Origin: Halomonas sp. MCCC 1A13316
GTDB taxonomy: Bacteria > Pseudomonadota > Gammaproteobacteria > Pseudomonadales > Halomonadaceae
Direction: 5' to 3'
Length of the DNA stretch: 64,000 bases
NCBI RefSeq assembly: GCF_014931605.1
Contig: NZ_CP053382.1
Location: 3,596,001 to 3,660,000, forward strand
The position numbers and the translations under genes are program-made. The notes beneath the pieces are model-generated. The model made no database searches. It saw nothing but the letters and a program-made list of their open reading frames with translations, and was not told where the DNA came from. Numbering within the stretch: the first letter of the stretch is position 1; each line of letters opens with the position of its first letter. This document shows, in pieces, positions 2,693 to 34,288 of the stretch.

Positions 2693-2823
2693 GGCGATAT
2701 GCTCCTCTCGTGCTTGTAGTCGTTATATGGCTGAGATGGGTTACATTAGACTTTATGTGTAGATTTACACGAACCTCAATGAATTCGAGTCTATAGAGCC
2801 GTCCTGCAACGTGACAATGCGCA

Positions 2824-2848
2824 CTTCTTCACAAGTTTTGTGCAAGAA
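2824..2848. promoter_or_regulatory. Dyad in the mmsA/lysR intergenic region, candidate LysR operator
   Basis: The core CACAAGTTTTGTG (2830-2842) is a perfect odd-centred palindrome. It is flanked outward by TTCTT on the left and AAGAA on the right, with one base of offset. It sits between two divergently transcribed genes, the usual position for a LysR regulator site. Confidence 0.5.
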
Positions 2849-2893
2849 TGCACAACCAGCCAATAAGGATAAAGTTACAGCGAAGGTGGCGCC

Positions 2894-3838
2894 GTGCTCG
2901 ACTGGCAGGACATTCAGATCTTTCTCGAAGTCGCCCGCAGCCAGCGGCTGACCGACGCTGCCCGGCGCCTGGGCCTGGATCACTCCACGCTATCGCGGCG
3001 CACCCGACGCTTCGAGCAGAAACTCAACACCCAGCTCTTTGAGCGTAGCACCCACGGCTACCATCTGACCGAAGCCGGCCAACAGCTACTGGCCCACGCC
3101 GAAGAGATGGCCCGTCACGCCTTCGAGGCAGGTGAGAACCTGGCCGACAAGAACCGCCAGCTCAGCGGACAGATTCGCCTGGGCGTGACCGAAGGCTTCG
3201 GCACCTGGATCATCGCCCCACTACTCTCCGCCTTCTGTGAGCAGCACCCCGGCATCACTCTTGACCTGCTTGCCCTGCCCCGGGTGGTCAACCTGAGCCG
3301 CCACGAGGCGGACCTGGCGATCACCGTGGAGCGGCCCGCAAGCCAGGGGCTGGTGATCTCGCGACTGTGCGACTACCGGCTAAGGCTCTACGGCAGCCAG
3401 AGCTACTTCCAGCGCCACGGCCGCCCGGGGCGCCTCGCCGAACTCGGTGAACACCGCCTGATCGGCTACGTCGACGATCTGATCTTCAGCGAGCAGCTCA
3501 GCTACCTCGACCCTCTGCTTGACCCCGCGGTGGTTGGCACGGCACCGCACTTCTCGATCCGCAGCACCAGCGTCACCACCCAGCACGCCGCCGCCCTGCA
3601 GGGGGCCGGGCTCGCCGTGCTGCCCTGCTTCATGGCCGAAACCGGCGACCGGCTAGAGAGCGTGCTGAATGGCGAAGTGGAGATCGTGCGTCAGTTCTGG
3701 ATCACCGCGCGCCAGGAGCAGCGCCGCCTGGCGCGGGTGCGGCTACTTTGGGATTTTCTGCGTGAGGCGCTGGAGCTCAATCGCGCCCTGCTGATGGGCG
3801 AGGCGGGGAAGTTGGTGCTGCCCGACCCCACGCCATAG
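2894..3838 (+). CDS. LysR-family regulator, divergent from mmsA
   Basis: The 314-residue protein has an N-terminal winged helix-turn-helix (residues 1-60, with LTDAARRLGLDHSTLSRRTRRFE) and a LysR substrate-binding domain from about residue 90. The start is GTG at 2894, preceded by AAGGTGG. Divergent orientation and the shared intergenic dyad suggest that it controls mmsA. Its 3' end lies 16 bp from the end of the convergent flavin dehydrogenase gene. The inducer cannot be read from sequence. Confidence 0.9.
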   Translation: MLDWQDIQIFLEVARSQRLTDAARRLGLDHSTLSRRTRRFEQKLNTQLFERSTHGYHLTEAGQQLLAHAEEMARHAFEAGENLADKNRQLSGQIRLGVTEGFGTWIIAPLLSAFCEQHPGITLDLLALPRVVNLSRHEADLAITVERPASQGLVISRLCDYRLRLYGSQSYFQRHGRPGRLAELGEHRLIGYVDDLIFSEQLSYLDPLLDPAVVGTAPHFSIRSTSVTTQHAAALQGAGLAVLPCFMAETGDRLESVLNGEVEIVRQFWITARQEQRRLARVRLLWDFLREALELNRALLMGEAGKLVLPDPTP

Positions 3839-3854
3839 CATTGCGACTGGGACC

Positions 3855-5267
3855 TCAAGCAGCCGATTCGCGCCCCAGCTGACGAGCCGCCTCGCGCCCG
3901 GCGATGGCGCCCAACACCACGGCGCTGAGCAAGCCGTTGCCGGAGAGGTAACCGCTGTCGCCTGAACCGGAGACACCTCTCGCCGCGCCACCGGCGGCGA
4001 ACAGGTTGGCGAAGGCAGCACCATTCTGGCGTAGCACCCGCGCCTGGGCGTCCACCTCGAGCCCGCCTTGGGTATGGAACAGCGCGCCGGTGACCTTGAT
4101 AGCATGAAAAGGCGCCACCAGTTGGTCCGCGGCATTGAAGCTGCGGCCGAAGCCGTCGGCTTCGCCGCTCTCGGCCAGGGCGTGCATCTCGGCGAAGGTT
4201 TCACGCAGGGCTTCCAGCGGCAGAGCCAGACCGGTAGCCATGGCTTCGAGGCTGTCGAAAGTGCGCACCGCCCCTGCCGTATCGGCATTGCGATAGTCCT
4301 CGAACTCCAGCGCTGCCTGGTGGATGCGTTCGTCGAACAGATTCCAGGCAATGCCGCCCGGCTGGGCCAGCACCTTGGCCGCTTGCTCTGAGTAGCCGCC
4401 ATGCTCGTTGGCGAAGCGTCGCCCCTCGGTATTGACTTGCACGCCGCCGCGCATCATCACCGCCCAGGTGATCAGGGTCTGGTGCGGCATGGCCAGCGAG
4501 CCGTGGCCCTGGCAAGCGCCCAGGTCCTTGAGGCTGGCGCCCATGGCCTCGCCCCAAAGCAGGGCATCGCCCTGGTTGCCCTCGTGGCCGAAATAGAGGG
4601 CCCCCTTCAGCGTCGGCAGGTGGCGTGCCACCAGCTCGGTATTGCCGCCATAGCCGTTGCAGGCCAGGATCAGCGCATCGCAGCCAATCGATTCCCGGCT
4701 GCCGTCGGGGCGCTCCAGGGTCACGCCATGCACGCGCCCCGTGTCGTCCGCATGCAGCTCCACGACTCGAGCCTCGGTGAGCAGGTCGATGCCCGCCGCC
4801 TCCACCGCGTTGAGCAGGCTGCCCATCAGCTCCTCCCCGGTGCGCCGCGGCGTGGCGTGCATGCGCATACGGCTGTGGCCGGGGTAGAGGAAGCCCTCCA
4901 CCAGGTCGAAGGGCACGCCGTGGGCGTCGGCCAGCCACTCCACCACGCCGGCGGAGGCCTCGGTCAGGGCACGCACGATGGCCGGGTCCGCCTGATGACC
5001 GTTCTTGTGCTGAATGTCCTGACCCATTAGTTCAGGGCTGTCTTCGACCCCTTTTTCGGCCTGAAAGCGCGAACCCGCCGCGGGGATGAAACCCTGGGAC
5101 ATCGAGGTGCTACCCCTTGGCAGCGCATCGCGCTCCAACACCACCGAATCTGCGCCGTACTGCCTGGCAGCCAATGCCGCCACCAGGCCGCAGGCTCCCG
5201 CGCCGATGATCACCAGCGGCACGTGTGCCTCGAATTCCTGCCCGTCATGAAAGGCCACGATAGCCAT
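3855..5267 (-). CDS. FAD-dependent dehydrogenase of the fumarate reductase/3-ketosteroid dehydrogenase family
   Basis: The 470-residue protein has a Rossmann FAD motif GAGACG (22-27) followed by the ribose-binding acidic residue in VVLERD. It has the GSTSMSQG segment typical of this family and a C-terminal FAD-sealing stretch (GDSGYLSGNGLLSAVVLGAIAGREAA). Relatives desaturate or reduce C=C bonds next to carbonyl groups. The ATG at 5267 follows GAGGAG; an open frame upstream lacks a ribosome site and overlaps the neighbouring gene. It is the last gene of the leftward catabolic arm, 11 bp after the NodB-like gene. It may introduce or remove the double bond of the ring substrate (inference). Confidence 0.85.
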   Translation of the reverse strand: MAIVAFHDGQEFEAHVPLVIIGAGACGLVAALAARQYGADSVVLERDALPRGSTSMSQGFIPAAGSRFQAEKGVEDSPELMGQDIQHKNGHQADPAIVRALTEASAGVVEWLADAHGVPFDLVEGFLYPGHSRMRMHATPRRTGEELMGSLLNAVEAAGIDLLTEARVVELHADDTGRVHGVTLERPDGSRESIGCDALILACNGYGGNTELVARHLPTLKGALYFGHEGNQGDALLWGEAMGASLKDLGACQGHGSLAMPHQTLITWAVMMRGGVQVNTEGRRFANEHGGYSEQAAKVLAQPGGIAWNLFDERIHQAALEFEDYRNADTAGAVRTFDSLEAMATGLALPLEALRETFAEMHALAESGEADGFGRSFNAADQLVAPFHAIKVTGALFHTQGGLEVDAQARVLRQNGAAFANLFAAGGAARGVSGSGDSGYLSGNGLLSAVVLGAIAGREAARQLGRESAA

Positions 5268-5278
5268 GGTGAGACTCC

Positions 5279-6214
5279 TCAGTCGTTGTCGCCGGCCTGC
5301 TTGCGGTAGGCATCGAGTATCTCGCCGGCCGGCGCCTGCCATACGTCGTCATGTCCGGCGATATGGTCGAGCACCGCTTCCAGGCAGCCGATACGATGCG
5401 GCTGACCGACGAGCCAGGGGTGCAGGTTGAGCGCCAGCAGCCGGCCACCCTGCGCTCGGCCCTCCTCCAGCAGGAAATCGAAAGCGTCCGTCACCTGGTT
5501 CACCCAGCTGTCCTCCGAATGCAGGTTCTGGCACATCACGAACTGGTCTTCGATCTCGGTGGAGAGCGGCATCATGGTCAGTTCGCCGCGCTCAGTGGCG
5601 AAGGCGTAGGGCATGTCGTCGTTGACCCAGTCGCAGCAGTACTCGATGCCGTTCTCGGCGAGCAAGTCCGGCGTATTCCAGCTCTGATGCTTGGCCGGGC
5701 TCAGCCAGCCGCGAATGGGTTGGCCGGTCAGCTCGCGCAGGGTCTCGACCGAACGCCGCACGATTTCGGCCTCCTCGTCGCGATCCTGGCCGCCGTAGTG
5801 CAGGTGATCCATGTTCCAGCCGTGGCACAGGAACTCGCCGCCGTAGGCCTTGAGCCGCTCCAGCAGATAGGGGGTCTGCTCGGCGAGTTGAGCATTGATT
5901 GCCCAAGTGGGGCGAATGCCGCGCTGCTCGAAGGCCGCCAGCATGCGGTAGATGCCCACCCGGTTGCCGTAGTCGCGCAGCGAGGAGTGGCGCAGATCCG
6001 GATACGGCATGGTCATGCCGTTGGGCACCTTGAACGGCACGCCACGCTGATTGAGCGGGTAGAACTGCAGCGACACGTTGATCCATACCGCCAACGGCTT
6101 GCCACCAGGCCAGTGGACCGGCTTGCGATTGGCAAGCATGGACCAGGCGTAACGGTCATGGTCGTAACCGTAGCGACGCCAAGGGTAGGAGAGGTAACCC
6201 GGGTCGAGTGACAT
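5279..6214 (-). CDS. Polysaccharide-deacetylase-fold (NodB/PuuE-like) hydrolase 1
   Basis: The 311-residue protein has a NodB-type fold with RDYGNRVG (80-87), CHGWNMDH (130-137), GWLSP (about 170) and a C-terminal LHPWLVGQPHRI. These features place it with allantoinase PuuE and cyclic imide hydrolases rather than with true chitin or peptidoglycan deacetylases. It has no signal peptide, so it acts in the cytoplasm. It lies 3 bp downstream of a second paralogue and upstream of the flavin dehydrogenase. A likely role is hydrolysing a cyclic amide or imide C-N bond; the substrate is inferred from context. Confidence 0.85.
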   Translation of the reverse strand: MSLDPGYLSYPWRRYGYDHDRYAWSMLANRKPVHWPGGKPLAVWINVSLQFYPLNQRGVPFKVPNGMTMPYPDLRHSSLRDYGNRVGIYRMLAAFEQRGIRPTWAINAQLAEQTPYLLERLKAYGGEFLCHGWNMDHLHYGGQDRDEEAEIVRRSVETLRELTGQPIRGWLSPAKHQSWNTPDLLAENGIEYCCDWVNDDMPYAFATERGELTMMPLSTEIEDQFVMCQNLHSEDSWVNQVTDAFDFLLEEGRAQGGRLLALNLHPWLVGQPHRIGCLEAVLDHIAGHDDVWQAPAGEILDAYRKQAGDND

Positions 6215-6217
6215 GGC

Positions 6218-7180
6218 TCAGTTCCTCCCGGCCGCGACGGCCTTGGCGTCGATATCGCGCACGGCATCATCGTAGTGGTGCGCAAGATAGTGGCTGGCGA
6301 TCTCGCGGCCGGTGGCGAGCCAGACGTCGCTGTGGCCGGTGATGTACTCCAGCGCTTCCTCGAAGGCCTTGATGCGGTGCGGGCAGCTGACCTGGTAGTT
6401 GTGGGTGGGTATGCACATGACCGTGCCCGATTCGGCGCCCTCGGCGTAAAGCCGGTCGAAGTGGCGCTTGAGCATGGTCAGGTAGTGGCGCGGCTCCACC
6501 TTGTTCACCGCGTAGACGATGGTGTCGTTCATCTCCAGCGAGTAGGGCACGGAGAGAAAGCGCCGCCCCGAGCGCAGATGAATCGGCGTGGGTTGATCGT
6601 CGTGAAACAGGTCGCAGGTATAGATGCCGCCTTCCTCACCGAACAGCTCCTGGCCCACCTCGGCGAACAGATCCAGGGTGTGCTCCGAGTGAGACAGGGC
6701 CGGCGCCAGATAGCCGGCGCACTTCTGCCCGGTATGGCGATGTATCGTCTCGATGCCGTCGCGGATCATCTCCCGCTCCTGGGCCTCGCTCAGGCCGTAG
6801 GTGTAACGGGTGTTGTAGACCCCATGGCTGAAGAACTCCCAATCGCGCTCGCGGCACATCTCGATGATCTCGGGATGGTGCTCGCACAGCGCCACCGACA
6901 GCGATACCGAACCGCGAATGCCGTACTTGTCGAGCAGTGCCATCTGGCGCTGGTGGCCGACCCGGTTGCCGTAGTCACGGATACTGAAGCCGGGCACCGA
7001 GGGGTGCGGCGTGGGCCACGGCTTGCGCTGCGGATTGAGCGGCGGATCGAGCTCGTAGTATTCGATGTTGGGGGCCACCCAGAAGGCGACCCGGGCGCCG
7101 TTCGGCCAGGTGATCTTCGGGCGGTTCTCGTAGGGCCAGTAGTCGTAGGCACCCAGTCGCTCTTTCAACTCAGCCTTCAT
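6218..7180 (-). CDS. Polysaccharide-deacetylase-fold (NodB/PuuE-like) hydrolase 2
   Basis: The 320-residue paralogue of the next gene shares RDYGNRVG (68-75) but has SHGVYNTRYTYG (118-129) where the other has CHGWNMDHLHYG, and PTHNYQVSCPHRI near the C-terminus. The active-site surroundings therefore differ, which suggests different substrates or a heteromeric enzyme. There is no export signal. It sits between the isochorismatase-type amidase and paralogue 1 with only short gaps, so co-transcription and a shared pathway are likely. Assignment as imide or lactam hydrolase is inference from the PuuE/imidase relationship. Confidence 0.83.
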   Translation of the reverse strand: MKAELKERLGAYDYWPYENRPKITWPNGARVAFWVAPNIEYYELDPPLNPQRKPWPTPHPSVPGFSIRDYGNRVGHQRQMALLDKYGIRGSVSLSVALCEHHPEIIEMCRERDWEFFSHGVYNTRYTYGLSEAQEREMIRDGIETIHRHTGQKCAGYLAPALSHSEHTLDLFAEVGQELFGEEGGIYTCDLFHDDQPTPIHLRSGRRFLSVPYSLEMNDTIVYAVNKVEPRHYLTMLKRHFDRLYAEGAESGTVMCIPTHNYQVSCPHRIKAFEEALEYITGHSDVWLATGREIASHYLAHHYDDAVRDIDAKAVAAGRN

Positions 7181-7198
7181 GTCGCTCTCCTCGCCGGC

Positions 7199-7873
7199 TC
7201 AGACCGTTTCCGCGGCACGCTTCTCGAGCCAGGCCAGCACATCCGCCACCGGCATCACGTCGGCGTACTTCAGATGCAGGTCGGTGAGGTTGGCGTAGTG
7301 GTAGCTCTCGTGCTTGTCGGCCACGCACTCCATGGGCACGATGGTGCGGTAGCCACGCGACAGGCTATCCACCGCGGTGGCGCGAATGCAGCCGGAGGTG
7401 GAGCCACCGGTGACGATCACAGTGTCCACCTGGTGCCACACCAGCAGCGACTGCAGCGGCGTCTCGAAGAAGGCCGACGGCATGCGCTTGGTGTAGACGA
7501 CGTCGCGCGGATCGATCTCCACCCGCTCGTCGAAGGCGGCGCGATCGGAGCCGTACTTGATGTTCTGCAGCGAATCGGGCGTATCGGTGCGAGTGCCCCA
7601 GACGCCGGCATCCTCGGCAGAGTCGAGGAAGGCCACATGCGTCCACACCACCGGCCAGCCGAGCTTGCGGATGCCGCTCGCCAGTTGATTGACGTACTCG
7701 AGCTGGCTGGGGTCGGTCTCGTAGGCGGTCTTGTAGAGATCGGTGCGGGTATAGGCCTTCTGCGGGTCGACGTTGACCAGCACCGCCTTGTTGCCGAAAC
7801 CGAACGGCACGCGCTGCGGGTTGGCCATTACCTCGGCGAATATTTCCTTGGCGGTCTTGTCGGTCGTGATCAT
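7199..7873 (-). CDS. Isochorismatase-family amidohydrolase (maleamate amidase/N-carbamoylsarcosine amidase type)
   Basis: The 224-residue cysteine hydrolase shows a complete Asp-Lys-Cys triad: D36 (NVDPQKAY), K129 (VVYTKRMPSAFF) and C162 (GGSTSGCIRATAVD). The TSGCIRA stretch resembles maleamate amidase NicF and N-carbamoylsarcosine amidase. Such enzymes turn a half-amide into an acid plus ammonia. The position beside two ring-opening-type hydrolases fits a half-amide hydrolysis step after imide opening. The exact substrate is unproven. Confidence 0.88.
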   Translation of the reverse strand: MITTDKTAKEIFAEVMANPQRVPFGFGNKAVLVNVDPQKAYTRTDLYKTAYETDPSQLEYVNQLASGIRKLGWPVVWTHVAFLDSAEDAGVWGTRTDTPDSLQNIKYGSDRAAFDERVEIDPRDVVYTKRMPSAFFETPLQSLLVWHQVDTVIVTGGSTSGCIRATAVDSLSRGYRTIVPMECVADKHESYHYANLTDLHLKYADVMPVADVLAWLEKRAAETV

Positions 7874-7903
7874 GCGCTCTCTCCTGAAGGGGGTCTGTCC
7901 TTG

Positions 7904-8782
7904 TTATCGACGGCTGTCGTACTTCTGGCCCAGCTCGAGCATGGCCTGGGTGCCGATCACCTCGTTGAGCTGACGGAAGTCGAGCATGCGCTCGCGGAAG
8001 GCATCGGTGCTGCCATCTCGGCGCAGGGTGTCGAAGAACTGTTGCGCCATATGGGTAAAGGCACGCACCAGGGCACCGGGGAAGATCACCAGCGAGAAGC
8101 CCATGTCCTGCAGCGCCTGGGCATTCTGCAGCGGGGTGTCGCCCCCTTCCACCATGTTGGCCATGATCGGAATCTGACCGCGGAACTCGGCCATGATGCT
8201 GGCGATGTCATCGTCGCTGCGAATGCCTTCGATGAACAGCATGTCGACGCCCGCTTCGCGATACGCCTGCGCGCGCTCGATGGCACGCTCGGTTCCCTCC
8301 ACCGCCACGGCATCGGTACGCCCTATGATCAGAGTTGCATCGCTCTCACGGGCATCCAGCGCGGCCTTGAGCTTGCCAACCATCTCCTCCTGGGCGACCA
8401 GTGTCTTGCCACGCAGGTGACCGCAGCGCTTTGGGTAGGTCTGGTCCTCCAACTGGATGGCATTGGCTCCCGCACGCTCCAGCATGCGCACGCTGCGCAT
8501 CACGTTCATGGCATTGCCGAAACCGGTATCGCAATCGACCACCACCGAAAGCTCGGTGCGCTCGCGGATGTGCGACATCACGTCGTTGACCTCACTGAGG
8601 CTGACCAGACCGATGTCGGGACGTCCGAGCTGGGTGTAGGCGATACTGGCCCCTGAAAGATAGACGGTATCGAAACCGGCATCGGCGGCGAGCGAGGCGC
8701 TCAAGGCATCGTAGACGCCCGGTGCGACGACGATCTCCGGGGCGTGCAGCTTGGCCTTGAGGTCGCTGGCGGAAAGAGTCAT
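7904..8782 (-). CDS. Isocitrate lyase/PEP mutase superfamily C-C lyase (2,3-dimethylmalate lyase-like)
   Basis: The 292-residue TIM barrel has the metal-binding VDCDTGFGN segment (82-90) and the loop YPKRCGH with catalytic Cys120. That cysteine marks C-C bond lyases (isocitrate, methylisocitrate and dimethylmalate lyases) and is absent from PEP mutase and phosphonopyruvate hydrolase. The product would be a 2-oxoacid plus a carboxylate. The ATG at 8782 follows GAGGAA; an upstream in-frame extension lacks a ribosome site. The nearby LeuC/LeuD-like hydratase would supply a 2-substituted malate, so a dimethylmalate- or methylmalate-type substrate is favoured over isocitrate (inference). Confidence 0.87.
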   Translation of the reverse strand: MTLSASDLKAKLHAPEIVVAPGVYDALSASLAADAGFDTVYLSGASIAYTQLGRPDIGLVSLSEVNDVMSHIRERTELSVVVDCDTGFGNAMNVMRSVRMLERAGANAIQLEDQTYPKRCGHLRGKTLVAQEEMVGKLKAALDARESDATLIIGRTDAVAVEGTERAIERAQAYREAGVDMLFIEGIRSDDDIASIMAEFRGQIPIMANMVEGGDTPLQNAQALQDMGFSLVIFPGALVRAFTHMAQQFFDTLRRDGSTDAFRERMLDFRQLNEVIGTQAMLELGQKYDSRR

Positions 8783-8836
8783 GACAATAGGGTTCCTCAA
8801 ACGGTCGGGTAAGGGATAAAGGGCCACAGGCCTGGT

Positions 8837-9412
8837 TCAGGAGCGCGCCAGCGCCAGGTCGTTCCAGACCTGCTGACGCAGGAGCCTGCCGTGGCGCAGC
8901 TCGAAGCGATCGATGAAGCGCACGCCGGCAAAGGGCGTGCCGTCGGGCCACTCGCCGTGCAGTTCACCGTGGCAGACTACCGTCACGTAATCGCCCTCGT
9001 CGCAGGTATCAAAGGCATCGATGCGCTTGCGCACGAAGCGATAGCGCTCGCCGGCCCAGACCACCAATTCTTCCAGGCGCGTCATCTCGACGCCGCCGGG
9101 GAAGGTCATGGTGAAGTCCTCGTCGAGCAGGCGTTCGGCACGTGGCATGTCGCGCGCCTCCATGGCCTCGAGAAAGCTGCGCACCACGTCCGCGGGCGCC
9201 TCGCCTACCGCTTCGTCGTCGCTGGCGCCGCCCGGTGTCCGGGGCCGCCCGCCGCGCATGTAGGCATCGGGCTCCACCTCGTGCAGCAGCACGGTGATGC
9301 CATCCGGATCCGCGGCGATGCTGTGCCGTACGGCGTCAGTAAGCTGCTTGCACAGGCGCTGCTTGAGTTCGCCGGAATAGCCACGGATCAGGCTGACCTG
9401 AATGACGGGCAT
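8837..9412 (-). CDS. Tautomerase-SnoaL (NTF2-like) fusion protein
   Basis: The 191-residue protein has two domains. Residues 1-62 resemble a 4-oxalocrotonate tautomerase (MPVIQVSLIRGYSGELKQRL), with the catalytic proline exposed once Met is removed. Residues 75-190 form an NTF2/SnoaL-like cone (FLEAMEARDMPRAERLL, then FIDRFELRHGRL). The fusion suggests keto-enol or double-bond isomerisation linked to a second small-molecule pocket. It is the first gene of the leftward arm, facing gntR. Which domain is catalytic in this pathway is unknown. Confidence 0.8.
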   Translation of the reverse strand: MPVIQVSLIRGYSGELKQRLCKQLTDAVRHSIAADPDGITVLLHEVEPDAYMRGGRPRTPGGASDDEAVGEAPADVVRSFLEAMEARDMPRAERLLDEDFTMTFPGGVEMTRLEELVVWAGERYRFVRKRIDAFDTCDEGDYVTVVCHGELHGEWPDGTPFAGVRFIDRFELRHGRLLRQQVWNDLALARS

Positions 9413-9480
9413 GAAAGAATCTCCAAGGAAGCCTTTATCGTTGTTTGGCGCTATTCTTCAGAATGCATGGCACACAAAGC

Positions 9481-9498
9481 TGTCCTATGCATAATACA
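9481..9498. promoter_or_regulatory. Candidate GntR operator 1
   Basis: TGTCCTATGCATAATACA lies between the divergent tautomerase gene and gntR. It shares the left half TGTCCTAT, and the AT two bases further on, with the stronger dyad at 10423-10440. Confidence 0.5.
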
Positions 9499-9580
9499 TT
9501 TCTATGTCTACTGCGTGCACCACGTCAAGCACTTCATCAATCCGCTCATAACGATCCGCCACGAGAACAAGGACCGAACC

Positions 9581-10396
9581 ATGAACGATACGCATGCGAA
9601 CGCCGTCGGGGGCACCAAGTCCCATCGCATCTATCTGCTGCTCAAGGATGCAATCCTCAGCGGCCGGCTGGCACCCGGGCGCAAGCTACCCGGCGAGCTG
9701 AAGCTGGCGGAGCAGTACGGCGTTTCGCGGGTCACGGTCAGGCGCGCCATGCAGGCGCTCAACGAGGCGGGGCTGGTGGCACGCAAGCCCGGATTGGGCA
9801 CCGTGGTGCTGGAACAGCCACTGGACGCCACGGTGATGACCGCCAGCGTCGCCAACCTGATGCCCAATCTGGTCAAGATGAGCAAATCGTCACGGGTGCG
9901 GCTGCTGGAGTTCTGCTACGTCAAACCGACGGAGCCGGTGCGCGAAGGCCTCGGGCTGCGCGACGGGGAACGCGTACAGCGCTCGATCCGCGTACGCATG
10001 GCCGACGACAAGCCGCTCTCCTACCTCGTCACCCACGTACCGGAGCACATTGCCCTGCACTACAACGAGGCGGACCTGGCGCAGACCCCCCTGTTCGCCC
10101 TGCTCGAACGCAGCGGCGTGAAGGTCGACCATGCGGCCCAGACGATTTCGGCTACCCTGGCCACCCATGAGGTCGCCGAAGCGCTGGACGTCTCGGTGGG
10201 CTCGCCGCTGATCTCCCTGACCCGCGTGGTGTACGACGAGGAGGGGCGTGGCGTGGAGCATCTCGATGCGCTCTACCGCCCTGACCGCTACCGCATCCAG
10301 ATCGACCTCAACCGCACCGGCGACGAGGCGGCTCGCTACTGGGAGCCTGTGGCCACCGAGTCTCAGCATGCGCAGGCGGAGCCCCACGAGGCATGA
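9581..10396 (+). CDS. GntR-family regulator, HutC/UTRA type
   Basis: The 271-residue protein has an N-terminal winged helix (residues 13-78, YGVSRVTVRRAMQALNEAGLV then KPGLGTVV) and a C-terminal UTRA ligand-binding domain (about 105-250). The ATG at 9581 was chosen because translation of the longer upstream frame would run through the divergent gene. It lies at the hub of the cluster, with the enzymes to the left and the hydratase plus TRAP carrier to the right. Related 18-bp dyads on both sides suggest that it represses both arms until a pathway intermediate binds. Confidence 0.9.
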   Translation: MNDTHANAVGGTKSHRIYLLLKDAILSGRLAPGRKLPGELKLAEQYGVSRVTVRRAMQALNEAGLVARKPGLGTVVLEQPLDATVMTASVANLMPNLVKMSKSSRVRLLEFCYVKPTEPVREGLGLRDGERVQRSIRVRMADDKPLSYLVTHVPEHIALHYNEADLAQTPLFALLERSGVKVDHAAQTISATLATHEVAEALDVSVGSPLISLTRVVYDEEGRGVEHLDALYRPDRYRIQIDLNRTGDEAARYWEPVATESQHAQAEPHEA

Positions 10397-10422
10397 CCGC
10401 CCGGATATTCCTGCTCGCCAAA

Positions 10423-10440
10423 TGTCCTATTTATGGGACA
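10423..10440. promoter_or_regulatory. Candidate GntR operator 2, upstream of the leuC-like gene
   Basis: TGTCCTATTTATGGGACA is an 18-bp dyad that matches its own reverse complement at 14 of 18 positions. It lies 26 bp after gntR and 149 bp before the leuC-like start, and resembles the site at 9481. Confidence 0.6.
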
Positions 10441-10589
10441 GATTAAAAAGACAATAAAATACATTTGACCTGTGGTATGCGCTTGAGATAGTTGTATGTA
10501 GACAGCGATATGTAGATCGCTGGAAAAACAACGACACGCGAAGTGGCCGAACGCCACTCACTTGACGCAGCCGCGGCGAAGCGAACGAT

Positions 10590-11999
10590 ATGACCAAGCC
10601 AAAGACCCTGTTCGACAAGGTGTGGGACGCCCACGAGATCCTTCGCAGCGAGAGCGGCCAGAGCCTGGTGTGGATCGATCGGCACTTCGTGCACGAGGGG
10701 TCCTTCCATGCCTTCAACAAGCTGCGTGAGCGCGAACTCTCGGTGGCTCGAGCCGACCTGACCTTCGGAATCGCCGATCACTACGTGCCCACCCTGACCC
10801 GCCACCTCGAAGACATCGGCGACGCCAAGGTCCGCGGCATGATAGAGCAGCTCGCCGCAAACACCCGCGAGCACGGCATCACACTGTTCGGCCTCGACGA
10901 CCCGCGCCAGGGCATCGTGCATGTGCTTGGCCCGGAGCAGGGGCTGACCCAGCCCGGGCTGACGATGGTGTGCGGCGACAGCCATACCTCCACACACGGC
11001 GCCTTCGGCTGCATTGCCTTCGGCATCGGTGCATCGGAAGTGGCTCATGTGCTCGCCACCCAGACCCTGTGGCAGACCCGGCCGAAGAAGATGCGCCTTA
11101 CCGTCGAAGGCGAGTTGGCTCCCGGCATTTCAGCCAAGGATATCGCGCTGACCTGGATCGCCCGCCTGGGGGCGGATGGCGCCCGCGGATACGCCATCGA
11201 ATACACCGGCAGCGCCATTCGCGGCCTGTCGATGGAAGCGCGACTGACGCTGTGCAACCTCTCCATCGAGGGCGGCGCCCGCTGCGGCATGATCGCCCCC
11301 GACGAAATCACTTTTGACTACCTGCGTGAGCGCCCCTTTGCTCCCCGGGGCGAGCAATGGGACCAGGCGCTAGCCTACTGGCAGACATTGCAGAGCGACC
11401 CCGACGCCCGATTCGATAGGGAAGAGACATTGGCGGCCGCCGAGATAGCCCCCACCGTGACTTGGGGCGTCTCGCCGGAGGAGGCACTGCCCATCGACCA
11501 GTGCGTTCCCGACCCGTCGCGTATCGAGGACGCCGCGCGTGCCCGACAGGCACGCGACAGCCTGGACTACATGGGCCTGGCGCCCGGCCAGCCGCTCACC
11601 GATATCGCCATCGACCGCATCTTCATCGGCTCCTGCACTAACGCCCGCCTGGAGGACCTGCGCGCCGCCGCCGAGATTCTGCGCGGCCGCCGCAGCAAGG
11701 TGCCGGGCATCGTCTCACCCGGATCCACCCAGGTGAAGCGCCAGGCGGAGGCCGAAGGGCTGGACTTCGTGTTTCGCCAGGCGGGGCTGGAGTGGCGAGA
11801 ATCCGGCTGCTCCATGTGCGTGGGCATGAACGGCGACCTGGTACCGCCGGGAGAGCGCTGCGCCTCCACCACCAACCGTAACTTCAAGGGCCGCCAGGGG
11901 CCGGGCGCCAGGACCCACCTGATGTCGCCGGCCATGGTCGCCGCGGCGGCCGTGGCCGGGCACCTGGCCGACGTCCGCGAGCTGTCAGGAGCCTCATGA
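10590..11999 (+). CDS. Aconitase-family hydratase, large subunit (LeuC/DmdA-like)
   Basis: The 469-residue protein is the [4Fe-4S] subunit of a two-piece dehydratase. Cluster ligands are Cys349 (IGSCTN), Cys407 and Cys410 (GCSMC). MVCGDSHTSTHGAFG (126-140) is the conserved substrate/cluster loop. Compared with biosynthetic LeuC, the early motifs are altered: RHFVHEGSFHAF replaces the usual HLVHEVTSPQAF type, and GIADHYVPT replaces a VDHNVPT type. No leuA or leuB is nearby, while a KRCGH lyase and a TRAP carrier are. A dimethylmaleate or citraconate hydratase role is therefore more plausible than leucine synthesis. It overlaps the next gene by 4 bases. Confidence 0.88.
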   Translation: MTKPKTLFDKVWDAHEILRSESGQSLVWIDRHFVHEGSFHAFNKLRERELSVARADLTFGIADHYVPTLTRHLEDIGDAKVRGMIEQLAANTREHGITLFGLDDPRQGIVHVLGPEQGLTQPGLTMVCGDSHTSTHGAFGCIAFGIGASEVAHVLATQTLWQTRPKKMRLTVEGELAPGISAKDIALTWIARLGADGARGYAIEYTGSAIRGLSMEARLTLCNLSIEGGARCGMIAPDEITFDYLRERPFAPRGEQWDQALAYWQTLQSDPDARFDREETLAAAEIAPTVTWGVSPEEALPIDQCVPDPSRIEDAARARQARDSLDYMGLAPGQPLTDIAIDRIFIGSCTNARLEDLRAAAEILRGRRSKVPGIVSPGSTQVKRQAEAEGLDFVFRQAGLEWRESGCSMCVGMNGDLVPPGERCASTTNRNFKGRQGPGARTHLMSPAMVAAAAVAGHLADVRELSGAS

Positions 12000-12637
12000 T
12001 GGAACCGATCAAGACACTCGATGCCCTGGCCTGCCCGCTGCCGCGGGCCAACGTGGATACCGACCAGCTGATCCCGGCACGCTTCATGAAGGAGCCGCGC
12101 AGCGTCGGCTACGGTCAGTTCCTGCTCCATGACCTGCGCCATGACGAGAGCGGCCGGCCAATCGAGGGGTTTATCCTCAACCATCCTGAGGCGGCACAGG
12201 CGAAGACGCTGGTGGCACGCCGCAACTTCGGCGCCGGCTCATCACGAGAAGCCGCGGTCTATGCTCTGGTGGACTATGGCTTTCGCTGCGTGATCGCCCC
12301 GAGCTTCGGCGACATCTTCGCCTCGAATTCAGTCAACAACGGCCTGCTGCCGGCCACGGTCAGCGAGGAGGATGCCGAAACCCTGCTCGCGGCCCTGGGC
12401 GAGGCGCCCGGCTCGCTGCACATCGACCTGGAGGCGCAGCGCATCAGCGTCGGCGACCTGAGCGTTGCGTTCAGCATCGCCTCGACCTGGCGCACCAAGC
12501 TGCTCAACGGTTGGGACGATATCGACATGACCCGACAGCACGCGCGGGCGATCCAGCGCTTCGCTGACGAGTACTCACGGCAACACCCCTGGCTCAACGT
12601 GACAGTACCCGCCGGGAAGATCATTTCCCGGGGCTGA
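11996..12637 (+). CDS. Aconitase-family hydratase, small subunit (LeuD/DmdB-like)
   Basis: The 213-residue swivel domain has the conserved VARRNFGAGSSREAAVYAL stretch, and DTDQLIPARFM near the start. It partners the large subunit, whose stop overlaps its ATG (ATGA), implying coupled translation and a 1:1 complex. The length is close to LeuD. The substrate follows that of the large subunit. The gene is 67 bp upstream of the TRAP binding-protein gene, so hydratase and transporter are probably one operon. Confidence 0.88.
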   Translation: MMEPIKTLDALACPLPRANVDTDQLIPARFMKEPRSVGYGQFLLHDLRHDESGRPIEGFILNHPEAAQAKTLVARRNFGAGSSREAAVYALVDYGFRCVIAPSFGDIFASNSVNNGLLPATVSEEDAETLLAALGEAPGSLHIDLEAQRISVGDLSVAFSIASTWRTKLLNGWDDIDMTRQHARAIQRFADEYSRQHPWLNVTVPAGKIISRG

Positions 12638-12704
12638 CGCTTAACCGCCCCATGGGGCAAAAATAAGCAGCGCTACGAACTCGATGTCCACAAGGAGAAC
12701 AATC

Positions 12705-13706
12705 ATGAACAAGCCTCTCATCGCCTCTCTCGGCCTGGCCACGCTGATGGCCTCCGGCCACGCCCTGGCGGTCGACCGCATTACCGCCGTTCACGCCTTC
12801 CCGCCGTCGCTGATCTATACCCAGAGCTTTCTCGAGTTCGTCGACAAGGTGAACGAGCGCGGCGAGGGCGTGGTGCAGATCGACGTGCGCGGCGGCCCCG
12901 AGGTGATCGGGCTCTCCGAGCAGCCCGACGCCGTGCGCAACGGCGTGGTCGACATGGCCTACACCGCCGCCAGCTTCTATGCAGGCACCGTGCCCGAGCG
13001 CGACGCCCTGGTGGCCTCCAACACCAACGCCATCCACGCCCGCGAGAACGGCGGCATCGATCTGCTCAACCAGATCCACCAGGACAAGATGGGCGTCTAC
13101 TACCTGGGTTGGTTCGACAGCGGGGTCAGCTACAACCTGTATACCATCGACGAACCGAGCCTGGACGAAGAGGGCAACCTCAGCGTTTCCGGGCTGACCC
13201 TGCGCAGCAACCCGGTGTATGACGCCTTCTTCCAGGACTACCTCGGCGCCCAGCCGATCAGCCTGCCCACCACCGATGTCTACTCGGCGCTCGAGCGCAA
13301 TGTCGTCAATGCCACCGGCTGGACCCAGATCGGCCTGAAGGACCTGAACTGGGACCGCTTCCTCAACTACCGCATCGATCCGGCCTTCTTCTCCACCGAC
13401 ATGGGCGTGATCGTCAATCAGGAAAGCTGGAACGGCCTCAGTGAGGAAGCCCAGCAGATCCTCCAGGAAGTCGCCATTGAGCACGAGCATGCCAGCGCCG
13501 AGCGCTTCGAGGTGCTGGCGGAAGAGCAGCAGGCCGAACTGGAGTCCGACGGCATGCAGGTCTTCCGCCTGGAGGGCGAAGCCGGCAAACGCTACTCCGA
13601 AGCCGCCCGCGAAGCCACCTGGGAGCGCATGCGCAGCCAGATGGAGCGTCATCCGACGGGCCTGGAGCACTACGAAGAGTTGATCGAAAAGTTCAACGAC
13701 CTGTAA
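12705..13706 (+). CDS. TRAP transporter substrate-binding protein (DctP family)
   Basis: The 333-residue periplasmic protein has a Sec signal peptide (MNKPLIASLGLATLMASGHALA). The DctP fold follows (ITAVHAFPP start; VYSALERNVVNATGW about 207-221, the conserved hinge region). The ATG at 12705 follows AAGGAG. It would capture a carboxylate and deliver it to the QM membrane pair encoded next. A GC-rich hairpin separates it from the membrane genes. Its position after the hydratase genes suggests that its ligand is the pathway substrate or a diacid intermediate. Confidence 0.92.
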   Translation: MNKPLIASLGLATLMASGHALAVDRITAVHAFPPSLIYTQSFLEFVDKVNERGEGVVQIDVRGGPEVIGLSEQPDAVRNGVVDMAYTAASFYAGTVPERDALVASNTNAIHARENGGIDLLNQIHQDKMGVYYLGWFDSGVSYNLYTIDEPSLDEEGNLSVSGLTLRSNPVYDAFFQDYLGAQPISLPTTDVYSALERNVVNATGWTQIGLKDLNWDRFLNYRIDPAFFSTDMGVIVNQESWNGLSEEAQQILQEVAIEHEHASAERFEVLAEEQQAELESDGMQVFRLEGEAGKRYSEAAREATWERMRSQMERHPTGLEHYEELIEKFNDL

Positions 13707-13713
13707 GCGTCGC

Positions 13714-13740
13714 GGGGCCGGCCGCCATGCAGCCGGCCCC
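13714..13740 (+). promoter_or_regulatory. Intercistronic hairpin between TRAP P and Q genes
   Basis: GGGGCCGGC (13714-13722) pairs perfectly with GCCGGCCCC (13732-13740) in the 78-bp gap. No U-tract follows, so it probably stabilises the upstream message or attenuates readthrough, making binding protein exceed membrane subunits. Confidence 0.6.
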
Positions 13741-13784
13741 ATAGTTTCACTCGCTCCGACACTCCTTCGCCTTCGGGTATTCCT

Positions 13785-14291
13785 ATGCATTACGCGAGTC
13801 GTGCTTATCGGCTATTGCTCAACGGCATGGCCCTGCTGGCCGCCATCATGCTGGTGTGGTTGATGGTTGCCATCGTGCTCTCCGTGGTCATCCGCAACCT
13901 GGGCCTGCAGCCCTCGGCGTGGTTCTTTCTCTCCACCGAGTACGCCATGTTCTACCTGACTCTGCTGGGGGCCCCCTGGCTGGTCAGGCACAAGGGGCAC
14001 GTTCACATCGAACTGCTCACGTCGATCCTGCCGCCGCCAGCCCTTCAGGTGTTGAGCCGCCTGGTCGCCCTGCTGTGCGTGGCGGTGTGCGCGGTGCTGG
14101 CCTGGAAGGGCTATGACCTGGTGTCGATGAACCTGGCACGCAGCGACTACGACGTGCGCGCCTTCTTCGTGCCGAAGTGGATCCTCACCATCGCCTTCCC
14201 GGTGTGCTTCACCATGATGGCCATCGAATTCGCCCGCTTCGTGGTCGGGCGGGACATCCTTCACAGCGGCGAAGCGGGGATCAAGGAATAA
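13785..14291 (+). CDS. TRAP transporter small membrane subunit (DctQ family)
   Basis: The 168-residue protein has four predicted membrane helices (about 12-35, 47-65, 85-106, 128-150). The typical loop WLVRHKGHVHIELLT lies between helices 2 and 3. It forms the membrane complex with the large subunit. Its stop codon shares one base with the next start (TAATG), indicating translational coupling. Confidence 0.9.
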   Translation: MHYASRAYRLLLNGMALLAAIMLVWLMVAIVLSVVIRNLGLQPSAWFFLSTEYAMFYLTLLGAPWLVRHKGHVHIELLTSILPPPALQVLSRLVALLCVAVCAVLAWKGYDLVSMNLARSDYDVRAFFVPKWILTIAFPVCFTMMAIEFARFVVGRDILHSGEAGIKE

Positions 14292-15604
14292 TGGAATGGT
14301 ATCTGGCCCTGGCCTTTCTGCTGGCCCTCATTCTCGGCTTCATGACCATCGGCACGCCCATCGCCCTGGCTTTCCTGGCGGCCAACGTCATCGGTGCCTG
14401 GCACTTCATGGGCGGTCAGAACGGCCTCATTCAGCTGTTGAACAACGGTTTCGGCGCGCTGTCCAGCTTCAACCTGGTGCCCATACCGTTGTTCCTGCTG
14501 ATGGGTGAGCTGTTCTTCCGCACCGGCCTGGGCATGCGCATGTTCAATGCCATCGATCAATTGATGGGCAAGGTTCCCGGGCGGCTCTCCTACGTGACCG
14601 TCGTCGGCGGCACCGGCTTTTCCACCCTGAGCGGCTCGTCGATGGGTTCCACCGCGCTGATGGGTTCGCTGCTGGTGCCGGAGATGGAGCGACGCGGCTA
14701 CAAGAAGCACATGGCCATCGGGCCTATCTTGGGCACCGGGGGGCTTGCCATCATCATCCCGCCTTCGGCGCTGGCGGTGCTGCTGGCCACGCTAGCCAAG
14801 GTCGACATCGGCGCCCTGCTGATCGCCGGCATCCTGCCGGGCCTGGTGCTGGCCGGCCTCTACATGGCCACGATCTGGACCCAGACCCGCATCGACCCCG
14901 AGGCGGCGCCCAACTACGAACTCGAGCCGGTGCCGTTCGCCCAGAAGCTGAAGCTGATCACCACCGACATTTTGCCGATGATCAGCGTGATGGTCTTCAT
15001 CGTGGCGCTGATGCTGATAGGCTTCGCCACGCCCTCAGAGGCGGCGGCGTTCGGCGCCCTGGGCGCCATCGTGCTGGCGGCGATCTACCGCTGTATGACC
15101 TGGGAGGCGTTCAAGCTCTCGGTCATCGGCGCGCTGAAGGTCACGCTGATGGCCTACCTGATCGTCTTCGGCTCCGCCACCTTCAGCCAGCTGCTGGCCT
15201 TCTCGGGCGCTTCCAGCGGGCTGATCCAGTGGGCTACCAGCTTCGACCTGGCGCCGATCCTGATGCTGCTCGCCATGTTCGCCGTGCTGCTGGTGCTCGG
15301 CACCTTCATGGAGCAAATCTCGATCATGATGCTGACGGTGCCGTTCTTCTTTCCACTGGCTCAGGTGCTGGGTTTCGATCCCATCTGGTTCGGCATCATC
15401 ATGCTTCTGGCGCTGGAGATCAGTTTCTCCACCCCACCGCTGGGGCTGCTGCTGTTCGTGATGAAGGGCGTGGCGCCCAAGGGCACTACCATGCGTGAAA
15501 TCTACTCGGCTGCCATTCCTTACATCCTCTGCTCGATGCTGCTGGTTGCCATCCTGATCATGTTCCCCGGTATCGCCACCTGGCTTCCCGGCATGATCAA
15601 TTGA
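14291..15604 (+). CDS. TRAP transporter large membrane subunit (DctM family)
   Basis: The 437-residue polytopic protein starts MEWYLALAFLLALILGF. It has the DctM pattern of about 12 helices, including the GGTGFSTLSGSSMGSTALMGS segment (about 100-120) and the C-terminal NxE-like region (LALEISFSTPPLGLLLFVMKG). It is a sodium-coupled translocation subunit. The start overlaps the dctQ stop. A perfect hairpin follows 12 bp after the stop and closes the operon. Confidence 0.92.
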   Translation: MEWYLALAFLLALILGFMTIGTPIALAFLAANVIGAWHFMGGQNGLIQLLNNGFGALSSFNLVPIPLFLLMGELFFRTGLGMRMFNAIDQLMGKVPGRLSYVTVVGGTGFSTLSGSSMGSTALMGSLLVPEMERRGYKKHMAIGPILGTGGLAIIIPPSALAVLLATLAKVDIGALLIAGILPGLVLAGLYMATIWTQTRIDPEAAPNYELEPVPFAQKLKLITTDILPMISVMVFIVALMLIGFATPSEAAAFGALGAIVLAAIYRCMTWEAFKLSVIGALKVTLMAYLIVFGSATFSQLLAFSGASSGLIQWATSFDLAPILMLLAMFAVLLVLGTFMEQISIMMLTVPFFFPLAQVLGFDPIWFGIIMLLALEISFSTPPLGLLLFVMKGVAPKGTTMREIYSAAIPYILCSMLLVAILIMFPGIATWLPGMIN

Positions 15605-15615
15605 GACCGATCCAT

Positions 15616-15641
15616 CCAGGGCGGCTCGGCAGCCGCCCTGG
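15616..15641 (+). terminator. Terminator-like hairpin after the first TRAP operon
   Basis: CCAGGGCGGCT (15616-15626) and AGCCGCCCTGG (15631-15641) form a perfect 11-bp stem with a 4-base loop. The U-tract is poor (TTCGATCAT). Confidence 0.65.
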
Positions 15642-16135
15642 TTCGATCATGCCGATATTTCAGTGTAATTGGACGCCGTTTCAACCTATTCGCCACAAAT
15701 TGGACTTTTTGATGCTGGGTCCGTAGGGTATATGGCCCTTGGTTCAGACAAAAACACTGACAACGAACCTTGGGCAGATCCCGCCTTGGGACATCCTGGT
15801 CTTGCCTCCATGCAGACTGGATCACCGCTACTCTCGACTGCACGTCGTCGACGCCATCGATAGAGAAGGAATCCATGTCGCGCCACTACGCCGATGAAGG
15901 ACGGTGCATGCCGCGCCGCCCGCCGCCTGCCCCCTCTGCGGGGTAATGCCTGACTGACGGCAGCATCTTGCCGTGCCCGATCGCTAGCACTCGAGGTTGC
16001 GCCACACTGGCGTCAGCCTACCTGTGTCTGTGCCTATGCACTGCCCGCCTTCTGGCCTAGCTACCCCCTAGCTCCGTCACTGCGCTCGGCATGTCGGCTG
16101 CCCGACCTGCCCGGGTGTGTCCGTTCCATCTAACG
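15642..16135. other. Gene-poor stretch between the TRAP operon and the symporter
   Basis: Roughly 500 bp. Short open frames occur on both strands (for example 15669-15863 and 15686-15886), but they have no ribosome sites and no recognisable domain, and they stop within 120 residues. I found no transposase signature or inverted repeats. The right end must hold the symporter promoter, but no clear -35/-10 pair stands out. Confidence 0.5.
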
Positions 16136-16146
16136 AGGGATTGCCC

Positions 16147-17844: not shown

Positions 17845-17906
17845 TTTCCTTCTACCTACGTTAAAAGCGGTGCCGATGCTCGCCACCGCTCACGGGAGAA
17901 TTCGCC

Positions 17907-18035
17907 ATGACAATGCTCTATGGTTTCTACGTTCTGATCTGGCCTGCCCTCACTCTGGGGGTTCTGGTGCTGATCTGCCGCGCGGTGTTGCACGATTGGC
18001 GCGCAGCGCGTAAGGAAAAGCGCGAGCTAGTATGA
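17907..18035 (+). CDS. Small single-helix membrane protein paired with the SSS symporter
   Basis: The 42-residue frame (MTMLYGFYVLIWPALTLGVL...) has one hydrophobic helix (residues 5-25) and a strongly basic tail (HDWRAARKEKREL). It has a good ribosome site, GGAGA, 7 bases before the ATG. It begins 62 bp after the symporter stop on the same strand. From memory, proteins of this size annotated 'putative transporter small subunit' accompany SSS permeases in marine bacteria. Its role is likely structural or regulatory. Confidence 0.75.
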   Translation: MTMLYGFYVLIWPALTLGVLVLICRAVLHDWRAARKEKRELV

Positions 18036-18189
18036 GCTACCTGAAGGACAGCGACCCTGGTGACTGGGTCCGTCTCGTTTCCGCTGTGCGCTTTTCGGGA
18101 GAACTACTCCCCGCCGCTGCTTGGTGTGTACTCACAGAGCGATGACCGTGCGTGTAAGCAAGCTGAGCCATCTGATGGCACAAAATAAC

Positions 18190-19512: not shown

Positions 19513-19572
19513 GGTCGGCTCCGGCAAGGAGGGAAAGGATCGGGCAAGCGGTCAATCCAGCTCGCGCAGCTA

Positions 19573-27438: not shown

Positions 27439-27451
27439 AGAGAGTGGAATC

Positions 27452-34129: not shown

Positions 34130-34220
34130 GATGTCACTTCCTTTGTGGCCGTGCCCCGGCAACTGAGGCGGCACGGGATGCGATCCTGCATCGTCAAGAC
34201 GTGTTGGCTTAGGCGCGGCA

Positions 34221-34288
34221 AGTCGTCCGCAGAACCGCCGATAGTTGGCCCGCTGCTCAGCGGCGCCTCTTCCAGAGGATAGTCGCTC
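34221..34288 (-). pseudogene. Decayed copy of the 5' end of the flavin reductase gene
   Basis: The 68 bases on the minus strand align with codons 1-23 of the intact flavin reductase gene (minus strand from 36152). Shared runs include CCGCTGAGCAGCGGG and CTGGAAGAGGC. There are about ten differences and one deleted base. The start ATG is lost (CTAG in its place). Homology fades after the FCG codons. It is a duplication scar upstream of the amidase gene. Confidence 0.75.

Follow-up and report, generated by a model that had tools for sequence, protein, structure and literature searches.

A twelve-gene block in Halomonas sp. MCCC 1A13316, probably a route for alkyl-substituted maleimides

What substrate would call for ring- and amide-opening hydrolases, an aconitase-family hydratase pair and a carbon-carbon lyase, all placed around one regulator? 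The question is raised by a stretch of 64,000 nucleotides (the window; positions below are its own unless a locus is named) from the genome of Halomonas sp. MCCC 1A13316, a single contig of 4.49 Mb (NZ_CP053382.1, forward-strand positions 3,596,001 to 3,660,000). The earlier note on this DNA proposed imide opening, half-amide hydrolysis, hydration of an alkylated maleate and cleavage, and remarked that maleimides from tetrapyrrole breakdown would be natural substrates. The answer argued for here is graded: the block is real and conserved; its two arms are apparently co-regulated; it is probably a route for alkyl-maleimides. The full reading, in which one regulated unit degrades alkyl-substituted maleimides, most probably the mono-pyrrole imides that oxidation of tetrapyrroles (chlorophyll, heme, bilins) leaves behind, is put at even chances.

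The twelve genes form two divergent arms, with a GntR/UTRA regulator between them (9581..10396, plus strand; Pfam E values, here and below: GntR 3.6e-20, UTRA 1.7e-34). Outward from it on the minus strand lie a tautomerase-SnoaL fusion (8837..9412; Tautomerase and SnoaL_2 domains), a lyase of the isocitrate lyase (ICL)/PEPM family (7904..8827; PEP_mutase, 2.5e-47), an isochorismatase-family amidase (7199..7873; 1e-28), two PuuE-like NodB-fold hydrolases, NodB2 (6218..7180; Polysacc_deac_1, 5e-7) and NodB1 (5279..6214; Polysacc_deac_1, 8e-9), and an FAD_binding_2 dehydrogenase/reductase (3855..5267, 470 amino acids; 7e-55). The rightward arm begins with the regulator and continues on the plus strand with the large and small subunits of a LeuCD-type hydratase (LeuC, 10590..11999, Aconitase, 6e-159; LeuD, 11996..12637, Aconitase_C, 3e-24) and the three parts of a TRAP carrier: the substrate-binding protein DctP (12684..13706; 1.6e-27), the small membrane subunit DctQ (13785..14291; 1.1e-20) and the large one, DctM (14291..15604; 1.6e-73). 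Open frames and Pfam domains agree in placing every enzyme where the earlier note had put it. The gene extents hold overall, with three starts to be moved: that of the FAD enzyme, whose open frame reaches 5342, is likely 5267; that of DctM, with a frame from 14177, likely 14291; and that of the regulator, with a frame of 8891-10396, likely 9581.

That the neighbourhood is not due to chance is evident from its recurrence. The best 80 of 449 NodB2 relatives in genome contigs were taken, the nearest loci rather than a random sample, and divide into 49 and 31. With a gene scored as present when a tblastn match covered at least 40% of the query, all 11 core genes occur in 44 of the 49 nearest loci (L024-L072). 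Four of the incomplete loci (L031, L046, L065 and L066) are stretches of just 5.4-11.5 kb; in the fifth, L061 (16.5 kb), a match to the regulator was not found. Carriers are Halomonadaceae, Marinobacter, Alloalcanivorax, Saccharospirillum and Terasakiella, together with metagenome-assembled genomes labelled Paracoccus, Hydrogenophaga, Methylocystaceae and Rhodovibrionaceae (alpha- and betaproteobacterial). The host's closest named relatives by NodB2 are Billgrantia (Halomonadaceae), with B. lactosivorans 98% identical, in a list from which records very near the window's own genome may be missing. The earlier note had named conservation as a block in other genomes as a check, and the block passes it; that it is one functional unit is very nearly certain. 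Among 97 relatives' genomes, NodB2 appears at E <= 1e-40 in 15 (the host's included), all within the 61 of its own genus; the block is therefore patchy, as horizontally moved catabolic sets are.

A short shared sequence ties the arms together. The 9-mer AATACATTT stands at 9493..9501, in the intergenic region between the divergent tautomerase and regulator genes, and again, exactly, at 10458..10466, upstream of leuC. In fixed 260-base upstream stretches it or its complement precedes the regulator gene in 42 of 45 cases and leuC in 41 of 45; of 1960 random windows drawn from these loci 47 contain it, a background that is overestimated because the random windows were not purged of real sites. 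The 9-mer is a candidate operator and fits a single regulator driving both arms: the UTRA protein would control the two through the shared site.

What the hydrolases might do is indicated by their relatives. NodB1 and NodB2 score 128 and 116.8 bits on the PuuE allantoinase model TIGR03212, both under its cut-off of 424.6; PuuE itself (3cl6) matches NodB2 at E 1.6e-24, and PuuE and the structure 3qbu are both among the five solved relatives of each window NodB. To judge by these comparisons the pair are members of the PuuE superfamily, not PuuE. Allantoin degradation was rejected for the same low model scores. The amidase has N-carbamoylsarcosine amidohydrolases among its solved relatives and falls far under the cut-offs of the PRK11440, biuret amidohydrolase and RutB models (35.5, 28.8 and 27.7 bits). 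Its catalytic triad, which the earlier note had called complete, is so: D36, K129 and C162 do not vary across 80 aligned rows, gaps set aside. A precedent for the two steps in sequence comes from the nicotinate pathway of Aspergillus nidulans: HxnM, a cyclic imidase, opens an imide with a six-membered ring, after which an amide hydrolase acts; HxnM is given there as 64% identical to a Pseudomonas putida imidase and as structurally close to 3qbu, a PuuE relative (PMC9304392). The order of imide opening and then amide hydrolysis gains support because a NodB-fold cyclic imidase there precedes an amide hydrolase (PMC9304392).

The hydratase pair and the lyase bring in another possibility: that they simply make up a module of branched-acid or methylcitrate type, and that the hydrolases act on some unrelated substrate. 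LeuC and LeuD speak for this, and against an alkyl-maleate hydratase, by exceeding the NCBIfam cut-offs for isopropylmalate dehydratase (658.8 bits for leuC, cut-off 560.25; 181.8 for leuD, cut-off 116.25), as does the likeness of the lyase to PrpB. Yet the genome already holds another gene of each kind. A second leuC, 55% identical to that of the block, falls in the clade of E. coli leuC (a partial sequence used as yardstick) in a gene tree whose support values are those of FastTree, and the block LeuC falls in a separate clade; a prpB-like gene elsewhere, 36% identical to the block lyase, groups with E. coli prpB. The lyase itself scores 288.4 bits on the prpB model TIGR02317, under the cut-off of 354.4, and reads EGG (in NMVEGG) where four PrpB-type sequences read EFG. 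The plain module is further disfavoured by the conservation of block and 9-mer and by the several lineages of hydratases and lyases found beside the same hydrolases (below), and is considered very improbable. Two narrower candidates were rejected: leucine biosynthesis, given the other leuC and since leuA- or leuB-type domains were not found in the frames scanned; and the methylcitrate cycle, given the prpB-like gene elsewhere and the low model score.

The LeuC cysteines C349, C407 and C410 are invariant in 53 aligned rows, gaps set aside. The lyase cysteine noticed earlier in the motif KRCGH is borne out at residues 133-137 and kept in all 57 aligned rows. The EGG motif is shared with the petal death protein (1zlp), an alkylmalate lyase; lyases in the second group of hydrolase loci have EGG or NGG. 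Cysteine and EGG together match this representative of the 2-alkylmalate lyases; that EGG separates the lyases by substrate may be inferred. On the LeuD/DmdB-type small-subunit model TIGR02087 the window LeuD reaches 64.7 bits, under the cut-off of 108.95, which is passed by the small subunits in loci L095, L098 and L106.

That second group is formed by the 31 further loci (L073-L103), in which isochorismatase, NodB2 and NodB1 occur in that order in other surroundings. The carriers include Microbulbifer, Alteromonas, Aliiglaciecola, Halioglobus, NOR5-3, Saprospiraceae and Croceitalea, with identities to the window of 75-80% for NodB2, 53-68% for NodB1 and 69-79% for the isochorismatase. A LeuC is found in 9 of these loci, an ICL-family lyase in 10, and one or the other in 14; a CaiB-type CoA-transferase occurs in 9 and an HMG-CoA-lyase type in 7, and 18 have some hydratase, lyase or CaiB. 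Gene trees show that the LeuC-type hydratases beside the triad come from several lineages; the other subfamily, the HacA/DmdB type, is seen in L095, L098 and L106, and the lyases derive from two or more branches, separate from that of PrpB. In L095 (Saprospiraceae) an HMG-CoA-lyase type, a HacA/DmdB-type hydratase, CaiB, isochorismatase, NodB2 and NodB1 follow one another on one strand; a Microbulbifer locus has a pair resembling the itaconate-route proteins RipB and RipC, and the scores of that pair, 248.7 bits (cut-off 340) and 217.3 bits (cut-off 375), fall short.

The same combination travels on plasmids. Among the 9 records examined of 508 that matched, LeuC is present in five (L104, from predicted frames; L106, L108, L110 and L111, from annotation) and an ICL-type lyase in four (L104, L106, L108 and L110). 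In the Sphingobium TomTYG65 and Sphingomonas JE1 plasmids LeuCD and an ICL-family lyase directly follow the NodB pair. On plasmids of Agrobacterium and Rhizobium the NodB pair is accompanied by an amidase, and an isochorismatase does not adjoin it (in L112 one lies some 7 kb off); that amidase would fit the half-amide step. Two plasmids typed as conjugative, of Burkholderia plantarii (p1, L106) and Acidiphilium multivorum JZ-6 (L111), hold core pathway genes with GntR regulators, an FAD enzyme, a porin and an MFS transporter; a TRAP carrier is not among their annotated genes, and L111 has CaiB and the HMG-CoA-lyase type with no annotated ICL-type lyase.

Hydratases, and lyases of types that form pyruvate, have come from several sources to lie beside the same hydrolases, and this favours the order imide, half-amide, alkyl-maleate, alkyl-malate, cleavage more strongly than any other argument. 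Imide and half-amide steps followed by hydration and cleavage of an alkyl-maleate are considered likely, on comparisons of genes and their neighbourhoods. Several observations pull the other way. Besides the LeuC and LeuD scores, the LeuCs of the second group are no nearer to the window LeuC than housekeeping LeuCs are; neither LeuC nor an ICL-family lyase is found in 17 of the 31 loci, within the stretches examined; 13, in stretches some of which are short, show none of LeuC, ICL-type lyase, CaiB (family c11) and HMG-CoA-lyase type (c12); and the exact 9-mer is not found upstream of the isochorismatase in any of the 31. A distant relative in Salipiger (NodB2 52.6%) lies with amidase and hydantoinase/oxoprolinase genes, and a distant triad in Comamonas beside acyl-CoA genes; the hydrolase set is therefore not bound to one substrate. 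The order given in the earlier note thus gains from the mixed ancestry of the hydratases and lyases and from the imidase precedent, and loses by the isopropylmalate dehydratase scores, by the 17 loci and by distant triads that point to other cyclic amides.

These last observations lend themselves to another perspective, in which the block is a generalist unit for cyclic imides and ureides (succinimide, maleimide, hydantoin, oxoproline-like rings), with LeuCD and the lyase serving for simple citraconate and no special link to tetrapyrroles. The PuuE-like NodBs and the amidase resembling carbamoylsarcosine amidase would suit it, as would the distant relatives with amidase and hydantoinase/oxoprolinase (Salipiger) or amidase (Agrobacterium and Rhizobium), and the 17 of 31 close triads without LeuC or ICL-type lyase. 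Succinimide, however, needs neither a hydratase nor a carbon-carbon lyase, and the close triads, at 75-80% in NodB2, include those in or near the islands described below. A generalist unit is judged unlikely, if the foremost of the rival accounts.

The alkyl-maleimide route would run as follows. The TRAP carrier would import the substrate; the NodB1/NodB2 pair would open the imide to a half-amide; and the isochorismatase-type amidase would release ammonia to give a cis-diacid, for example 2-methyl-3-(2-carboxyethyl)maleate, which would be the product from hematinic acid and amounts to cis-homoaconitate plus one methyl. The FAD enzyme may oxidise ring-reduced (succinimide-level) forms to the maleate level. 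Its closest solved relatives are flavocytochrome c (fumarate reductase; E 2e-56) and urocanate reductase (E 6e-49), and oxidation of reduced-ring imide products at the succinate level is the least certain of the assignments. LeuCD would then hydrate the double bond to an alkyl-malate, and the ICL-family lyase would cleave this to a 2-oxoacid and a short acid. On the precedent of PrpB, hematinic acid would yield pyruvate and glutarate, and methyl-ethyl-maleimide pyruvate and butyrate; with the hydroxyl on the other carbon, hematinic acid would yield 2-oxoglutarate and propionate. The tautomerase fusion occurs in 37 of the 44 loci that have every core gene; it is accessory and has no place in the scheme.

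The most likely candidate substrates, to judge by gene content and linkage, would be hematinic acid and methyl-ethyl-, methyl-vinyl- and methylmaleimide. Oxidising chlorophyll a in vitro has been shown to yield hematinic acid, and methyl-, methyl-ethyl- and methyl-vinyl-maleimide appear in an overview scheme of heme and chlorophyll products (PMC7318184). Such tetrapyrrole maleimides are preferred because the triad lies in or near islands with a homolog of red chlorophyll catabolite reductase (RCCR) and a Rieske oxygenase in Microbulbifer, Halioglobus and Litorivivens. In Microbulbifer an RCC_reductase gene (PF06405, 1e-12) stands about 5 kb from the triad; a single query gave Arabidopsis RCCR as its best solved relative (E 4.8e-7), then a bilin reductase. 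The RCCR structure entries in that search are, we take it, all from Arabidopsis. The Halioglobus protein near the triad scores 70.7 bits on PF06405 (cut-off 24.9). RCCR and triad share one 21-kb locus in 5 of the 31 cases (four Microbulbifer, one Halioglobus), and in Litorivivens they are about 24 kb apart.

An example is L092 from Halioglobus japonicus, whose 21 kb read through a short-chain dehydrogenase (SDR), a protein of family c25, RCCR, a VanA-like Rieske oxygenase, an alpha/beta-hydrolase-like protein and a protein of family c18, and onward through a GST-like protein (labelled by eye), the triad, a GntR regulator, the lyase, the HMG-CoA-lyase type, CaiB and LeuDC. The set of six (RCCR, Rieske, hydrolase, c18, c25, SDR) recurs in a Spongiibacteraceae metagenome-assembled genome and a second Halioglobus; in Microbulbifer NKW57 it is dispersed with the triad over about 60 kb, and in Litorivivens it is present without c25. 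Families c18 (about 323 amino acids) and c25 (about 200) have no Pfam match at E <= 0.01, and the c18 profile has no solved relative. PF06405 is found in 12 of the 31 genomes of the second group (E <= 0.001), 9 of them over the cut-off, in 3 of 369 sampled Gammaproteobacteria and in none of 14 control genomes.

Much has to be set against this lead. In one gammaproteobacterial family RCCR is found in 33 of 40 genomes, and 4 of the 12 positive genomes have coordinates identical to those of family members, with no RCCR in their triad loci. Co-occurrence at the level of genomes is thus partly taxonomic; the support that remains is physical linkage, in the 5 of 31 loci and Litorivivens, that is, in three genera. 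RCCR islands also occur with no triad nearby; in the Spongiibacteraceae genome and the second Halioglobus the triad and the six-gene module occupy separate contigs; and two of the three RCCR genomes of the class sample (G369 and G465, metagenome-assembled, 84% and 71% complete) show no NodB2 at E <= 1e-90, the RCCR of G465 adjoining a Rieske gene. The island proteins are themselves ambiguous: the Rieske protein matches VanA_C and has as best NCBIfam model 4-beta-methylsterol monooxygenase, under cut-off; Staygreen has no match over cut-off in 15 genomes, all carriers of RCCR; the island hydrolase matches Abhydrolase_6 and chlorophyllase, both under cut-off. The SDR may resemble plant chlorophyll b reductase; the NCBIfam models that it matches are of the generic SDR kind, with scores below their cut-offs. 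Finally, PF06405 was not found in any of the 37 genomes tested (of the 49 loci) with the TRAP-type block, and neither RCCR nor the heme oxygenase family is matched in the genome of the window, which leaves this host dependent on an outside source of the substrate. The remark on tetrapyrrole maleimides survives as the best lead, through the triad's relatives in or near the islands, and is weakened by the lack of an RCCR match in the very genome for which it was made; a tetrapyrrole origin of the natural substrate is given roughly equal chances of being right or wrong.

The RCCR/Rieske islands are candidate bacterial tetrapyrrole degradation clusters, as their gene content would have it. Sets of RCCR, Rieske, alpha/beta-hydrolase-like, c18, c25 and SDR genes lie in L148/L149 (Halioglobus japonicus, G116:C1:180001-220000), L141-L144 (Microbulbifer NKW57), L145-L147 (Litorivivens) and L151-L153, and nitrilase or TonB-receptor genes are near some islands. 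A second, divergent bilin-reductase-like family adjoins a nitrilase gene in Litorivivens and Microbulbifer (L146:16470-17213 and L142:13745-14656; Fe_bilin_red E 2e-4 in L146, under cut-off), with further matches in L218 and L219. In another Microbulbifer locus a gene of the HapK (REDY-like) family lies near the triad (L076:7246-7557), with homologs in two Alteromonas loci; the family name comes, presumably, from a prodigiosin cluster.

A last alternative supposes that the maleamate or maleate is substituted and derives from another N-heterocycle, of pyridine, pyrrole or indole type, in a manner analogous to nicotinate degradation. It draws on locus L101 (Porticoccaceae), where the triad keeps company with a GntR regulator, a TRAP DctM, FAD enzymes and a molybdenum hydroxylase, and on the NodB-fold imidase of the fungal nicotinate pathway (PMC9304392). 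But the window block contains no ring hydroxylase or dioxygenase, the molybdenum hydroxylase locus is the single one among the loci scanned, and kynureninase and tryptophan 2,3-dioxygenase are not conserved neighbours (6 and 0 of the 49 loci, each at most 21 kb); such a route seems improbable. Apart from these arguments, the L101 locus (L101:181-4705) pairs its molybdenum hydroxylase subunit with a ureidoglycolate-lyase-family gene, possibly an N-heterocycle variant.

Further out in the window, kynureninase and tryptophan 2,3-dioxygenase lie on the minus strand at 18190-21071 with an SSF symporter adjoining. These three, an aldehyde dehydrogenase and a LysR regulator were rejected as members of the block, being found in 6, 0, 3, 11 and 15 of the 49 loci, respectively. 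Positions 26368-30345 hold a TRAP DctM, malonyl-CoA decarboxylase and an AMP-binding enzyme (perhaps malonyl-CoA synthetase), probably an operon for malonate use. An Amidase-signature protein lies at 32702-34294, 17 kb from the block.

Taken at its widest, the alkyl-maleimide reading would make the block the lower half of a complete but undescribed bacterial pathway of tetrapyrrole mineralisation; halomonads and many others would carry this half as a mobile set of scavenging genes, equipped with a dedicated TRAP carrier and a UTRA sensor. This is offered tentatively, at somewhat less than even chances. Hosts like this one would scavenge free maleimides, and marine relatives with RCCR/Rieske islands would make them from whole tetrapyrroles, the end products of the full route being pyruvate, glutarate or butyrate, and ammonia. 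A literature search in which subscription journals were thinly covered returned no described bacterial catabolism of maleimides, no description of this gene set and no route for the pyrrole end products of chlorophyll. Each year very large quantities of chlorophyll are formed and broken down; if the proposal is true, candidate enzymes can be named for the breakdown of the pyrrole end products of pigments, and the triad with its RCCR neighbours would provide marker genes for tracking the nitrogen and carbon of pigments through sea and soil. A short set of imides would suffice to test the substrate.

How does the block compare with systems already described? Plant chlorophyll breakdown (PaO, RCCR) is approached by the related bacteria in which, in or near triad loci, an RCCR homolog is joined by a Rieske oxygenase and a protein like the alpha/beta hydrolases; unlike the plant route, their Rieske protein is VanA-like and Staygreen is not over cut-off in the 15 genomes, and the window's genome holds the lower part only. 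The pre-PcyA bilin reductase clusters likewise place the bilin-reductase superfamily in nonphotosynthetic bacteria, but differ in having heme oxygenase, globins and V4R proteins, with RCCRs as an outgroup and, in the accessible text, no catabolic cluster described (PMC10151467). The end of the methylcitrate cycle offers a PrpB-like lyase, and the hematinic acid intermediate would be methylaconitate plus one CH2; unlike PrpB of that cycle, the window lyase falls short of the prpB cut-off and carries EGG for EFG, as the petal death protein does. When Eubacterium barkeri ferments nicotinate, dimethylmaleate hydratase (DmdAB) acts ahead of 2,3-dimethylmalate lyase. As there, a LeuCD/aconitase-family pair would here hydrate an alkyl-maleate ahead of an ICL-family lyase, and the HacA/DmdB-type subunits of L095, L098 and L106 provide a DmdB-type link; enoate reductase and B12-dependent methyleneglutarate mutase domains are absent from the frames scanned (1193-21071), and, unlike in the E. 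barkeri pathway, the maleate step in the window would come after the action of two NodB hydrolases and an amidase of the isochorismatase family. For those first steps the likeness is to the fungal HxnM pathway, with imide opening and then amide hydrolysis; the fold family that HxnM and the P. putida imidase have in common with the window NodBs is judged by shared solved relatives (3qbu and PuuE). Unlike the HxnM system (PMC9304392), the window has tandem NodB genes and an amidase of isochorismatase type, and would go on from there to hydration and carbon-carbon cleavage.

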